Shown here: positions 10,486 to 18,982 of the stretch, in pieces
Numbering within the stretch: position 1 is the first letter of the stretch
How the letters are laid out: every line of letters starts with the position of its first letter
Source of the DNA: a virus
Direction: 5' to 3' (one strand)
Virus record (IMG/VR): IMGVR_UViG_3300010370_000313
Span: 1-20,157 of that record
Length of the DNA: 20,157 nucleotides
Notes under the pieces: generated by a model
Seen by the model: the letters and a program-made list of their open reading frames with translations, nothing else
What the model was told of the DNA's origin: nothing
Databases searched by the model: none
Translations under genes and position numbers: made by a program

Positions 10486-13400
10486 TTATCCTCCTGTCGG
10501 TGTAAACAGATTCTTAACAAAGTCCCATGCTCCATCAAGAACTTTCTCACCAACCTTAGTGCCAACAATAGAACCAAGCAGCTTACCATATGAAGCACTT
10601 GTTTCGGCACTGATTTTCTCACGAGCAAGTTCTGCTTGCAACACTGCTGTTGCCATCGACGCTGCTCTATCTTCAGCACGCTCATAGCTGTCAAACACCA
10701 TCTTCACCTGATCGCGATAAAGCTGCACTTCGTTATTATACTGCGCAAGCGTCATGTTGTTCATTGCTTGAGCATTTTGGAAGTTGGCACCGTTGATGGC
10801 AGCGGTGTTAGCGGTGCTAATGTTAGCAATGAGTTGAGCATTTGCTTGATCAATGATGATGCGATTACGAGCGTTAAACTGTTGACGCTGTTCTTGCATC
10901 TCAGCATTAAACTTACTAATCGCATTAGTTTGACCAGCATTAAACTGCTGCATCGCGTTATATTGAGCAGTATTAAACTGATTTACTTGAGTTGCCAAAC
11001 CAGCGTTAAACTGATCAGCCTGCTGCTTGTTAGAAGCATTAAACTGACGAGCGGCATTTTCAGCAGCAGCGTCCGTCAATGCCGCTTGTGAAAGCTGTTG
11101 TGCCTTGAACAACGCCGCTTGTTGCGTGTTGGACATGTTCGCTATTTCCATTTGCAGGAAATTTTGAGCATTAGCAACAGCCGTTTGTTGACGAGCGCTT
11201 AGATTTGCCATTTCCATGCCAGCGAGTGTTGCTGCGTTAGCAATGACGGTGGCTTGACGATTGTTCAGATTTGCCAGATCAACCGACTGAGCAAGCCGTG
11301 CATTTTCCAAATACACCTGCTGCTGAGCGGTAAAGTTCATGTTGGCAATGTCGGCAATCTTTGCCGCATTCAACACGCGGGTCTGGAACGTCTGATCAAA
11401 CTCTTGTCCCAGAAACTGAGCACGCTGTTGTGCTGACAGCATAGCAACTTGCTGACGATTCGACAGATTCTGTGCTGCCATTTGCTGATATGCAGCAGCA
11501 TCAGCAGAGGCAATCGGAGTAGCCATCTCAAGTGCAGCCTGCACAATGGCTTGTCCTGCCATGCTAGAAGCTCCCAATCCGCGAGCAGCAAGCTGTGCCG
11601 TAACAGAGCGAATAGCACCCGCTGCCCAAGGCGGCGGATTGCTAGCATCGAAGTTAGCCGTAAGCTTTGTAAGTTGTCCCTGCACCGTCATGTCTTCGGT
11701 GACGACGCCCTGTGCAGCTTGAGTTTTGGCAATGGCTTCTTCGGCACGACGCATATCCACGGCAGTACCAGAAACAAGTTCGCCTTCTTGCAAAGTGCGA
11801 GTTGCCAACTGAGCCTGTTGCGCTTTGTCAAGCTGTTGAGCCTGAGCCATTGCTGCTTGCTTTTGTTGTTCCGTAAGCTGAGCAGCTTGAATAGTTTGAG
11901 CCGTTCCGGTGGAAGGAACAACACCCAACATTGCTTGTTCAACAGCGGGCTTCGCTGTGACAGCAGTAACAGATTGCGGAACAACGGCAGGCGGCGCAGC
12001 TACAGGAGAACCGGCTACTGCAAGAGTTTGTTGTGCTTGGCGTGCATCACCAGTAAGAGCATACTTGGCGGAGTCAAGTTTCATGTCGTCAGTAATAGCG
12101 GTTTGTGCTGCTGTAACAGTCGTCGCACCGCCCATCAGTGGTCTTCCACCCTCGCCGTATTGCGTACCTGTAACGGTACCGGTACCTGTACCACCACCAC
12201 CACCGGTAGTTGTTGTACCTGTACCACCACCACCGGTAGTTGTTGTATTTCTCGTAGTAGTTGTAGTGCCTGTACCACCACCAGTTGTAGTGCCGCCACC
12301 AGTGCTGCGTAATCCAGTAGCAATTCGTTGTAGTTCTGACCAATTGGCATCTAGAGGAGCATCAATTGCCTCACGAATCGTAGCATCGTCATATCCTGCT
12401 GCAAGCAATGAGTTGTAATACGCAGCCTTCTCTTGCGGCGTCTTGCTAAAGATTGAAGTATCAAATGACTTGCGCAATCCTGCCAAACGCTGTAGTCGCG
12501 ACCAATTTTGATCTGCCGGAGCGCCAATAGCTTCGCGGATAGTAGCGTCGTCATATCCAGCAGCAAGCAATGAATTGTAATATTCTGCTTTCTGCGCAGG
12601 CGTCTTATTGAAGATTGATTGGTCAAACGATGCACGCAAACGATCTACAGCAGATTGTGTAGCGGGTGTACCACCGCCACCACCACCAGCGCCGCCTGTT
12701 CGCAAATTCTGAGCGATGTCTCGCAATTGCGCCCAGTTCTGATCTTCTGGGGCATTGATTGCAGCGCGAATAGTGGCATCATCGTATCCTGCATCAAGCA
12801 ACGAGTTGTAATATGCGGCTTTTTCTTGCGGTGTTTTGCTGAAAATAGATTGATCAAATGATGAACGTAGCTTTTCAACAGGCGACTGTGTGATAGTTAC
12901 AGATGGGGGTGTTGTCGTATAATTAGTAACGCCCGCTGCCCTAGCGGCGCTAGGGGAGCTATACATTGTTCCATCTGGCCCATAAACAACCACTGCCATG
13001 TCTACCATACCATCTGTGTCTGAGCTTGGTGCCGATGAGGAATCTACTAATGAGCGACCGCCCCAAGCAGTATCCAACATCTGTATTGCTTGATTTTCTG
13101 TTAGTGTACCAAGACTAGATGGTTTAACAGATGAAGAAGAGGAGCTTGCAGCAGCAGCTCGCTGTTGGCTTGCAGCAGCAGCTCGCTGTTGGCTTGCCAT
13201 ATTCGTCAAAGCACTCCAGTTTTGATCCTGTGGAGCACCAATAGCGGTACGAATAGTTTCGTCATCATAACCGCTGTCCAAAAGCGAATTGTAATATGTC
13301 GCTTTTTCTTGTGGCGTCTTGCTAAAGATTGAAGTATCGAAAGTGCTGCGAAGCTGTTCAACACTGCCACCGGCTTGATAGCGCATCACTGCACCACCTT

Positions 13401-13554
13401 TATTCATACGCTCGGTGTACTTGTCATTGATCATTTCATATTTCATGGCAAGCGCGGGCGAGCTTTGAACGAATTCGTCAAAGCCCTGCATCGGACCATC
13501 GTAGCCAAGTTTACGAGCAATGATTTCTTTTTGCTTTGCAGTGAAGTTTTTCAT
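10486..13554 (-). CDS. Large repeat-built virion protein (1022 aa)
   Basis: The protein is modular. Residues 1-65 include KGGAVMRYQAGGS. Four copies of a ~53-residue module lie at 68-120, 229-281, 306-358 and 360-412; the core is FD-x-SIF-x-KTP, YYNSLL, GYDD-x-TIR-x-AI-x-AP and a Trp. Low-complexity Ser/Ala (121-142) and Gly/Thr (418-464) linkers separate parts. Residues 555-615 are Ala/Gln helical. Residues 696-902 are 22- and 11-residue repeats predicting a long right-handed coiled coil or amphipathic helix. The C-terminus (950-1022) ends in a Gly/hydrophobic segment (KLLGSIVGTKVGEKVLDGAW). Such long Ala/Gln helical proteins are typical of internal, ejected or fibrous phage virion parts; the exact role is unknown. 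The start overlaps the HExxH gene by ATGA and has a weak ribosome site, so translation is probably coupled. Confidence 0.65.
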   Translation of the reverse strand: MKNFTAKQKEIIARKLGYDGPMQGFDEFVQSSPALAMKYEMINDKYTERMNKGGAVMRYQAGGSVEQLRSTFDTSIFSKTPQEKATYYNSLLDSGYDDETIRTAIGAPQDQNWSALTNMASQQRAAAASQQRAAAASSSSSSVKPSSLGTLTENQAIQMLDTAWGGRSLVDSSSAPSSDTDGMVDMAVVVYGPDGTMYSSPSAARAAGVTNYTTTPPSVTITQSPVEKLRSSFDQSIFSKTPQEKAAYYNSLLDAGYDDATIRAAINAPEDQNWAQLRDIAQNLRTGGAGGGGGGTPATQSAVDRLRASFDQSIFNKTPAQKAEYYNSLLAAGYDDATIREAIGAPADQNWSRLQRLAGLRKSFDTSIFSKTPQEKAAYYNSLLAAGYDDATIREAIDAPLDANWSELQRIATGLRSTGGGTTTGGGTGTTTTTRNTTTTGGGGTGTTTTGGGGGTGTGTVTGTQYGEGGRPLMGGATTVTAAQTAITDDMKLDSAKYALTGDARQAQQTLAVAGSPVAAPPAVVPQSVTAVTAKPAVEQAMLGVVPSTGTAQTIQAAQLTEQQKQAAMAQAQQLDKAQQAQLATRTLQEGELVSGTAVDMRRAEEAIAKTQAAQGVVTEDMTVQGQLTKLTANFDASNPPPWAAGAIRSVTAQLAARGLGASSMAGQAIVQAALEMATPIASADAAAYQQMAAQNLSNRQQVAMLSAQQRAQFLGQEFDQTFQTRVLNAAKIADIANMNFTAQQQVYLENARLAQSVDLANLNNRQATVIANAATLAGMEMANLSARQQTAVANAQNFLQMEIANMSNTQQAALFKAQQLSQAALTDAAAENAARQFNASNKQQADQFNAGLATQVNQFNTAQYNAMQQFNAGQTNAISKFNAEMQEQRQQFNARNRIIIDQANAQLIANISTANTAAINGANFQNAQAMNNMTLAQYNNEVQLYRDQVKMVFDSYERAEDRAASMATAVLQAELAREKISAETSASYGKLLGSIVGTKVGEKVLDGAWDFVKNLFTPTGG
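10849..11469 (-). repeat. Hendecad (11/22-residue) coding repeats
   Basis: These encode residues 696-902 of the 1022-aa protein. Residues 837-902 are six 11-residue units starting (Q/K)FN (QFNASNKQQAD, QFNAGLATQVN and so on). Residues 740-805 are three 22-residue units (such as NLNNRQATVIANAATLAG... and NLSARQQTAVANAQNF...), followed by a fourth, NMSNTQQAALFKAQQ. The period of 22 is twice 11, so one helical repeat geometry probably runs through the region. In the DNA the (Q/K)FN units show as recurrent TTAAACTG blocks on the + strand. Confidence 0.85.
12163..12303 (-). repeat. Gly/Thr low-complexity linker
   Basis: These encode residues 418-464 of the 1022-aa protein, almost wholly Gly and Thr apart from one Arg-Asn pair and one Val. 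On the + strand the DNA is a string of ACC-type triplets with GGTAGTTGTTGT blocks repeated at about 12204-12215 and 12234-12245. It most likely forms a flexible linker between the repeat modules and the helical half. Other reading frames here give only low-complexity shadow ORFs. Confidence 0.8.
12319..12477 (-). repeat. 53-residue module, copy 4
   Basis: Encodes residues 360-412 of the 1022-aa protein, starting LRKSFDTSIFSKTPQEK and including GYDDATIREAIDAP. It follows copy 3 with only one residue between them. It is the copy nearest the Gly/Thr linker. Confidence 0.9.
12481..12639 (-). repeat. 53-residue module, copy 3
   Basis: Encodes residues 306-358, starting LRASFDQSIFNKTPAQK and including GYDDATIREAIGAP. 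It has the most changes in the KTP-x-x-K segment (AQKAEYYNS rather than QEKAAYYNS). Confidence 0.9.
12712..12870 (-). repeat. 53-residue module, copy 2
   Basis: Encodes residues 229-281, starting LRSSFDQSIFSKTPQEK and including GYDDATIRAAINAP. A Gly-rich linker (286-296) separates it from copy 3. Confidence 0.9.
13145..13192 (-). repeat. Exact 24-bp tandem duplication
   Basis: Two identical 24-bp units (13145-13168 and 13169-13192) encode the duplicated peptide SQQRAAAA within the Ser/Ala-rich linker after module copy 1. Perfect identity implies a recent slippage or duplication, or turnover of the repeat. Confidence 0.95.
13195..13353 (-). repeat. 53-residue module, copy 1
   Basis: Encodes residues 68-120, starting LRSTFDTSIFSKTPQEK and including GYDDETIRTAIGAP. 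It is separated from copy 2 by about 108 residues of unrelated linker, so the array is not purely tandem. Confidence 0.9.
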
Positions 13555-16993: not shown

Positions 16994-18982
16994 TTATGCG
17001 ATGGCGAGGTAGATGTAGGTGCCGCCGTTGGCGTTCAGCCCTGCCGGGGCTGCTGCGGTGACTTGGAAGCCCACGCTTGTGGTGTCCACATAGTTCGTGC
17101 CGGTGTCTTCAGCAGCCGTGGAGTTAAGCAACAAGTAGGGATCATTGCCGCTTGTGATGCCACGGGCAGAGTCGTACACAAACCAATCGCCCGTGCTGTC
17201 CGTGCGCTTGATGAGCACGAACCGAGCACCGCCCGTGAAGCCGCAGTTAATGGTTTGCAATGCACCCGTGCCGGTGTAACTGCCGACCTTGCTGACGCCG
17301 GGGCAGGAGGCGAACAGGTAGGCGACATAATTAACACCCGAATCGTTTGTTGAGCCGCCACCCGCTGCTAAAGTAAATACGGTGCTTGTTGGAGTGGTGT
17401 TGTTCCAATCCGATGTCGTATACGAAGCGCCGGTGGTGTTTAGTTCTATCCCTTTATTGTTTCCAAGTGAAGCAACATACACAGGCCAACCCGCCGAAGT
17501 GGTGCGAGATTTAAATATCATCAACTCAGGAACAACACCCAAATTGTGCGTCACCGTTCTAGTTCCACTTGTACCGGAATAACAAACCACATCGAAGAAG
17601 CCGGGGGCGCGACCAAACATATAGCCGATGTACGCAATGTTAAGTTGGTTGGTTTGGCTATTGCTTCTGTTGACTGACACACCGTCGTTGTTGAAGCTCT
17701 CAACCTGATAACCAAGTCCATCGCCCCCGGAAGTGTCAGTTTCTTCAGCCGACACTGCGGCACCCGACGGTGCGCCATACAAAAACACCCTAGTTCCACG
17801 CAACTTGTCGTAGCGTGCAGTAGCAACACCCCCGGGTCTTGGAATGGGCCAAAATGTATCCGGTGAGAACGACGCCCCGGTTAACTTGTTCAAGCTAAAT
17901 CCGGCTCCGGTGTACGCCTTGGGCAAGAAAACACTCGTCCCCGTTGTCGGCGTTTTCATCGGGCCGCGACGGATGGCGATGTAGATGAATGTTTGAGATC
18001 CATTCACCCCACTGACAGTAAACCCAGTTGCGTTTGGAGATGCATAGTCGCTGTTGAATATTTCTGCGCCGCTAGAGTTTGCTTGCAGCAGCGCATCATT
18101 TTGTCCCTCAACGGTCATGCCGCGCATGGTGTCAAACATCCACCATCCTGTGCCGTTCAGACTGGACATTTTCCACATCACCCACTGCGGCTCATACCCA
18201 AGAGTGACACTCGCATTCCCGCTGCCGTCAGTCGTAAACGACCCACACGAAATCACATTGTCCGTACCCGTCAGCCCGAAGCCGCCTGCGTCGTGGGCGA
18301 AGAGGTAGGCGACATAGGTTGAACCATTGTTATTGACCTGAGTGGAATTCCCCACCGTGAAATTAGTACTTGTAGGCTCCGTGTCATTCCAAAATGTTGA
18401 TGAAGTAACAAATACACCAGTGCCATTAAAGTTTGCACCTTTCGTCGCTCCAGTTGATCTATGGTAGGCCAACCAGTTGAACCCATCGCTCAAGCATTTG
18501 ACAATAATGAAGCCCGGCGCAGAACCAAGGTTGTGGCTAATTGCTCGACTTGCAGAGCCATTCCCCGTATAAGTCACCACATCAAAGAACTTCGCCTGCT
18601 TGCGAAATGTCCATGAGACATAGTTCGTGCCGCTTGCGTTGTTTCCACCGACGCCAACTCCGTTACCTAATGTAAAACCAGTTGTGCTAAATGCAGTAAT
18701 TGCCTGCGTATACCCCTGCTGCGAATTAGTAAGGTCTGAATAAAGCAGCGCGTTAGCGCCTGCCGACCATCGGTTCGTATCAATCAGGATGTGGCTCGTG
18801 CCTGCGTTAATCCTGTCCTTTCCCCACACCAACCCGCCCTTGGTGGACAGATCAATCCCGTTGGTGATCGTCTGCGTAGAGCCGTTGCCGGTGTAGAGCC
18901 ATGTGCTGAACACATCCTCGATGTAGACCTTTTCAGCCCCACCGGCACCTTCAGCCAAAACTAGTTGCTGTGAGCCGCTCAT
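16994..18982 (-). CDS. Tail fibre/spike protein with duplicated beta-rich cassette (662 aa)
   Basis: The protein is rich in Gly, Thr, Asn and aromatic residues, typical of phage receptor-binding proteins. It is built from two copies of a cassette of about 310-320 residues (26-340 and 350-662). In each, an N part leads to FFDVV-x-Y(T/S)G with a HNLG-x-x-P block (132-160 and 462-490) and then N-x-x-PTST-x-FT (200-209 and 528-537). YVAYLFA follows (223-229 and 552-558), and a last part contains W-x-x-(F/Y)D-x-x-RG (281-288 and 600-608). The pattern resembles DUF7483-type tail proteins. It probably recognises the host surface. It is followed by the chaperone-like gene and overlaps the upstream fibre gene by ATGA, with no strong ribosome site of its own. 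Confidence 0.75.
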   Translation of the reverse strand: MSGSQQLVLAEGAGGAEKVYIEDVFSTWLYTGNGSTQTITNGIDLSTKGGLVWGKDRINAGTSHILIDTNRWSAGANALLYSDLTNSQQGYTQAITAFSTTGFTLGNGVGVGGNNASGTNYVSWTFRKQAKFFDVVTYTGNGSASRAISHNLGSAPGFIIVKCLSDGFNWLAYHRSTGATKGANFNGTGVFVTSSTFWNDTEPTSTNFTVGNSTQVNNNGSTYVAYLFAHDAGGFGLTGTDNVISCGSFTTDGSGNASVTLGYEPQWVMWKMSSLNGTGWWMFDTMRGMTVEGQNDALLQANSSGAEIFNSDYASPNATGFTVSGVNGSQTFIYIAIRRGPMKTPTTGTSVFLPKAYTGAGFSLNKLTGASFSPDTFWPIPRPGGVATARYDKLRGTRVFLYGAPSGAAVSAEETDTSGGDGLGYQVESFNNDGVSVNRSNSQTNQLNIAYIGYMFGRAPGFFDVVCYSGTSGTRTVTHNLGVVPELMIFKSRTTSAGWPVYVASLGNNKGIELNTTGASYTTSDWNNTTPTSTVFTLAAGGGSTNDSGVNYVAYLFASCPGVSKVGSYTGTGALQTINCGFTGGARFVLIKRTDSTGDWFVYDSARGITSGNDPYLLLNSTAAEDTGTNYVDTTSVGFQVTAAAPAGLNANGGTYIYLAIA

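Follow-up and report, generated by a model that had tools for sequence, protein, structure and literature searches.

The window analysed here is the whole of a 20,157-nucleotide stretch of viral DNA, positions 1 to 20,157 of IMG/VR record IMGVR_UViG_3300010370_000313. On its minus strand, the gene for a protein of 1022 aa, hereafter the carrier, opens a block of large genes whose successive products measure 1022, 67, 152, 476, 1159, and 583 aa. The window and the Puniceispirillum phage HMO-2011 (NC_021864) have in common the order of the gp25 counterpart, the large gp24 to gp22 proteins, and ribonucleotide reductase. Since this gene order is accompanied by a homologous gp25, we assign the window to an HMO-2011-type phage. 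The carrier, a virion-type protein, is the syntenic counterpart of gp25. Virion proteomics for this gene was not found in the literature consulted on HMO-2011-type phages. Elsewhere on the same strand, the window encodes a phage lysozyme (14061-14528, Pfam E 8e-27), which lies upstream of the carrier gene and may belong to a small lysis cluster, and a tail-fibre-type protein (16994-18982) with a DUF7483 domain (E 7.6e-98) and PHROG matches to tail fibre and virion structural proteins. The carrier gene is organized as follows:

10486..13554, minus strand: carrier gene, open reading frame of 1022 aa (P0001), counterpart of HMO-2011 gp25
13366..13554, minus strand: conserved N-terminal domain, residues 1-63 (FTAKQKEIIARKLGYDGPM..MNKGGAVMRYQAGG)
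13195..13353, minus strand: module copy 1, residues 68-120, from profile match and alignment
12895..13029, minus strand: 45-aa linker segment between copies 1 and 2 (..VVVYGPDGTMYSSPSAARAAGVTN..), conserved in loci L040 and L080
12712..12870, minus strand: module copy 2, residues 229-281, subject of the structure prediction
12481..12639, minus strand: module copy 3, residues 306-358, from profile match and alignment
12319..12477, minus strand: module copy 4, residues 360-412, separated from copy 3 by a single residue
12115..12318, minus strand: Thr/Gly-rich low-complexity linker following copy 4, residues 413-480, from sequence and composition
10489..11784, minus strand: conserved C-terminal part, residues 591-1022, Gln/Asn/Ala-rich

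Both ends of the carrier are conserved. The N-terminal domain (~60 aa) shows 92-100% identity among near relatives and is present in most full-length orthologues scanned, module-bearing or module-free. In L016 (CRP-1), L134, L140, and L150, reading by eye places an N-terminal-like domain internally, several hundred residues into the protein. The C-terminal part (~400 aa), probably coiled and with QFNA motifs spaced ~11 residues apart, has 571 relatives among viral contigs; residues 591-1013 of the carrier are 54% identical to HMO-2011 gp25 over 423 aa, and this part also resembles CRP roseophage products and, at a greater distance, those of pelagiphages and of Rhizobium and Sinorhizobium phages. 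PHROGs assigned it no function, and its profile retrieved only prion chains from the PDB (E 0.06 and worse), which are low-complexity chance matches. Copies 1 and 2 are separated by a linker that contains a 45-aa segment (YGPDG-x-MY..A..AGVTN) distinct from the modules, which looks like another small mobile unit; in the comparison outside the modules, this segment is 58% identical to L040, and it is visible in L080 too.

A first, sequence-only reading had described four copies of a ~53-residue module joined by variable linkers, and had proposed a profile search, a structure prediction for a single module, and a count of copies in related phages as checks. Alignment and profile recover the four copies at exactly the residues that it gave, and the linkers do vary. 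The four-copy profile scores each of them at ~120 bits, although it was built from those copies; in an independent test, it matched modules in other contigs with 17-124 bits. The repetition of the module in the carrier is far beyond chance, with a conserved unit slightly longer than 53 residues (~57-62, with a core of ~46). The copies are 70-79% identical pairwise in protein and 60-71% in DNA, and many stops interrupt the plus strand across the module stretch. With synonymous sites saturated (pS 0.73-0.93), a count of identical codons close to that given by resampling, and the protein conserved (pN 0.15-0.27), the copies point to purifying selection and not to recent DNA duplication: each is old and has long been held by selection, in agreement with the earlier view that selection acts on each copy as a unit. 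One gene with four similar copies might suggest a recent, functionless tandem duplication, but the synonymous saturation refutes it; moreover, in the module tree, L007 and in part L005 contain positional orthologues of copies 1 to 4, so the copies predate the divergence of the phages bearing the carrier, L007, and L005. Such a duplication is, in our judgement, next to impossible. We also discarded the idea that codon divergence was selected to prevent recombination between the repeats, since identical codons are slightly more common than expected, not fewer (101 against 86 +/- 7.5 by resampling with the codon usage of the window).

The structure predicted by AlphaFold2 for copy 2 with a 37-sequence alignment is that of a small, all-helical folded domain (mean pLDDT 88, pTM 0.71) with five helices (2-7, 10-14, 17-30, 34-40, and 47-61), and residues K20, G31, D34, R38, W49, and L52 are invariant. 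As the sequence-only reading had anticipated, the module matches no named family: nothing exceeded the cut-offs in Pfam and NCBIfam, and the best PDB match by sequence was no better than E 0.08. By fold, Foldseek returned three PDB matches, none with E<5, and the fold may still be a known one. The only PDB chain aligning with Z>=2 was 2x48, the rudivirus ORF55 protein (Z 3.3, rmsd 3.1, 49 residues), a value far too low to indicate kinship. UBA-like Pfam matches, listed by E-value alone, comprised UBA_DHX29 (three of the 37 modules, best E 0.0015) and UBA (one of the 37, E 0.18). Among 50,697 phage records, no convincing relative of the module turned up. A pattern scan of GTDB species genomes gave a single match, L054, a cytochrome c-like protein that we rejected as false; a Caulobacter phage exonuclease match (E 0.01) was also discarded as chance, the protein being a nuclease that scores 2 bits against the module profile. 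On these sequence searches, the module is a new small domain family that lies outside any named one.

The sequence-only reading had also hinted at a helix-turn-helix-like unit that could bind nucleic acid, among other ligands. The helix-GY-helix pattern is indeed present, and a helix-turn-helix that engages the phage genome while it is packaged or ejected would agree with this helix-GYxD-helix arrangement and with the structural match to 2x48, though its Z is only 3.3. However, most of the 37 modules are acidic, with a mean net charge of -1.7 and a median pI of 4.7, which disfavours nucleic-acid binding, and helix-turn-helix families gave only sub-cut-off matches to the carrier (for example, RecX_HTH1 with 18.0 bits for a cut-off of 26). 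We therefore consider such a role very unlikely.

Two families come closest to the module. DUF4214 (PF13946) also consists of small repeated helical units in extracellular or virion-type proteins, has a helix-G[YF]-x-x-x-IR-helix motif, and fills the same slot in the same type of carrier. By contrast, the DUF4214 signature LYRxxLGRxxDxxG is missing from the module consensus (Y17, R23, and G29 are invariant in 15 DUF4214 copies), and the module has its own invariant K20, W49, and L52. A Pfam search with 37 modules at E up to 1 did not list DUF4214 among the matches, and a profile of local DUF4214 copies scored at most about 7 bits against the modules. Three hhalign comparisons of the two profiles, differing in alignment or settings, gave probabilities of 19, 57.5, and 17.4%, over ~20 residues confined to the helix-GY-helix stretch; of 150 column shuffles, one reached as high a score. 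The module could be a highly diverged DUF4214 that lost the LYRxxLGRxxDxxG half and kept the role of that domain, as the shared slot, the profile match over ~20 residues, and the occurrence of the two domains side by side in L043, L051, L010, L035, and L036 would allow; nevertheless, the missing signature, the Pfam result, and the purely local match make this improbable, and we rejected membership in DUF4214.

The CW_7 repeats of the Cpl-7 endolysin (5i8l) are likewise small, helical, and repeated, and place AGYD between two helices followed by a V/I, Q/R, V/I, N pattern. The module lacks WGNG, a motif found in nearly all CW_7 copies read, and has an extra C-terminal helix carrying the Trp. 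Arg271 and Gln286 of CW_7 have been implicated in muropeptide binding (PMC5705596); in an alignment anchored on AGYD, they correspond to Tyr/Leu23 and to the invariant Arg38 of the module, respectively. The hhalign probability was 25%, a value that none of 80 column shuffles reached, although the alignment spans only 20 columns, and CW_7 appeared in the PDB profile search with the first alignment (E 0.15) and disappeared with a larger one. Membership in CW_7 was rejected too, given a likeness limited to a local motif, the missing WGNG, and the lack of conservation of the muropeptide-binding residues. As far as these comparisons go, the likeness to both families is a shared local helix-GY-helix motif, with kinship not demonstrated. 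Among PHROGs, two families of unknown function gave weak, partial matches to the carrier: phrog_35627 (E 3.3e-8, best stretch residues 320-365), which had no match in six other module-bearing contigs, and phrog_649 (E 3e-7).

In orthologues of the carrier, the modules occupy a variable slot between the conserved N-terminal domain and the conserved C-terminal part. HMO-2011 gp25 (YP_008320287.1) and its CRP-phage orthologues resemble the carrier in gene position, in the C-terminal part (46-54% over about 40% of the query), and in the N-terminal domain but, unlike it, have no module in the slot. We surveyed 80 non-duplicate orthologues, made up of those of four named phages and the nearest ones from viral contigs, a sample biased to close relatives and not a random draw from the 571: the slot holds one to four modules in 11, DUF4214 alone in four, and neither in the remaining 65, so that copy number in relatives runs from 0 to 4. 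Module-free slots include those of HMO-2011 gp25, CRP-1 gp35, and the Pelagibacter phage and Manatee Spring phage orthologues. The turnover is visible in L040, L043, and L077, whose C-terminal parts are 97-98% identical while their slots contain four modules, one module together with one DUF4214, and three DUF4214 domains, respectively; L040 and L077 are 98% identical at both conserved ends. In a tree of the C-terminal part, most module-bearing sequences form one clade in which DUF4214-only sequences are intermixed, and the module-bearing pair L103/L104 falls outside it. Read by eye, the slots of L106, L133, and L082 appear to hold other two-copy repeats (for example, ADRLVRAGYAKIGRTGIG.. and IANIQASGGGDKEIAAAMNQYGV..) and an NPDVAKAGVDP-type segment. 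In L115 and L133, a Peptidase_S74 domain follows the conserved C-terminal part (E 1.3e-12 and 2e-7); it was not seen in the other orthologues read. Peptidase_S74 is the chaperone domain (of endosialidase) of trimeric fibre-type virion proteins.

The module is not restricted to this type of carrier. Iterating a 46-position module profile over the fetched loci (threshold E<0.01) yielded 78 copies, a figure that includes the false L054 and some near-identical loci. They belong to class A, that of the carrier in the window, and to three or more further classes of phage protein; the module-bearing proteins are encoded among tail, ejection, or portal genes. Class B (MSLAVLANHM..) has DUF4214 in some members, and virion structural and DNA-ejection-type proteins are encoded nearby; judged by a neighbouring gene, the nearest isolate is phage DSL-LC04, in which a gene two positions further on carries the annotation 'tail tape measure protein'. 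Class C comprises very large proteins. Class D is L027, whose gene immediately follows a portal gene; its two modules enclose a GDSL esterase (Pfam E 1.8e-16), a layout that resembles binding modules around a glycan-active enzyme. Among the module bearers, L033:4977-7028 includes a stretch like an intein/Hint splicing domain (Pfam Intein_splicing E 7.6e-4, below the cut-off), and the giant protein of L032:4914-9281 has Thr-Gly dipeptides repeated in a very long run. Once modules and DUF4214 are masked, class A has nothing in common with the other classes, whereas B, B2, and C have a common C-terminal tail, and L027 and L033 one common segment. In the module tree, which rests on 62 columns and leaves many forks unresolved, an FDxSIF clade unites class A, B, and B2 copies (support 100/100) and a second clade groups copy 1 of class A with class B (92/87). 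From these groupings, it is probable that modules have passed between non-homologous carriers on more than one occasion.

The analysis directly supports the domain as a conserved unit, the slot and the turnover of what fills it, and the occurrence of the same domain in unrelated carriers. A slot filled with 0-4 modules or with an unrelated small domain suggests that the module is an exchangeable binding part. We tentatively favour, at somewhat less than an even chance, an exchangeable unit that binds most likely a cell-envelope component and is borne by adsorption or DNA-ejection proteins. The four modules would be small, independently folding helical beads strung along flexible linkers, each weakly binding an exposed ligand, most likely a host envelope component such as a surface glycan or peptidoglycan. 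Multiple copies would provide avidity, exchange of modules or DUF4214 domains would retune binding, and the conserved ends would anchor the protein in the virion or the ejection apparatus. We prefer an envelope ligand because the slot changes fast while both ends of the carrier stay fixed, the same module lies on both sides of the GDSL esterase in L027, DUF4214 occupies the same slot, and Peptidase_S74 ends two of the orthologues. The DUF4214 argument is weak guilt by association since, to our knowledge, DUF4214 has no established function. Against envelope binding, the sugar-binding arginine of CW_7 has no counterpart in the module and most relatives do without any module.

A protein that stays inside the virion and has no contact with the surface would agree equally with the position of the carrier and its Gln/Asn-rich coil. 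The modules could then be assembly or spacer domains inside the virion, docking the carrier to portal, tail, or ejection proteins or the modules to one another, with copy number tuning only length or bulk. The carrier indeed heads the block of large proteins and adjoins ejection-type genes, it has the long Gln/Asn/Ala-rich coil, its copies 3 and 4 are directly adjacent, and other low-complexity or repeat segments appear to occupy the slot in relatives. Yet a constant docking partner is hard to square with the complete turnover of the slot between carriers 98% identical elsewhere, L027 has the same module on either side of an esterase, and many relatives lack the module. We regard such a structural role as a real possibility, only slightly less probable than envelope binding. 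To return to the envelope-binding unit, an extended version of it, which we consider doubtful, would make the slot a fast-exchanging cassette for receptor or envelope recognition, supplied from a module pool traded with unrelated phages and setting how the ejection apparatus engages the envelope.

HMO-2011-type phages reportedly rank with the most abundant phages of the ocean (PMC9038755). Despite this abundance, most of their virion genes have no annotation. The module profile, predicted fold, and invariant residues, together with the natural series of 0-4 copies in proteins that are otherwise alike, make the function of the carrier gene testable, and the module offers a same-slot stand-in for comparison with DUF4214. 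If the slot does act as a recognition cassette, it would constitute a second host-range determinant, besides the tail fibre, in an abundant group of marine phages.
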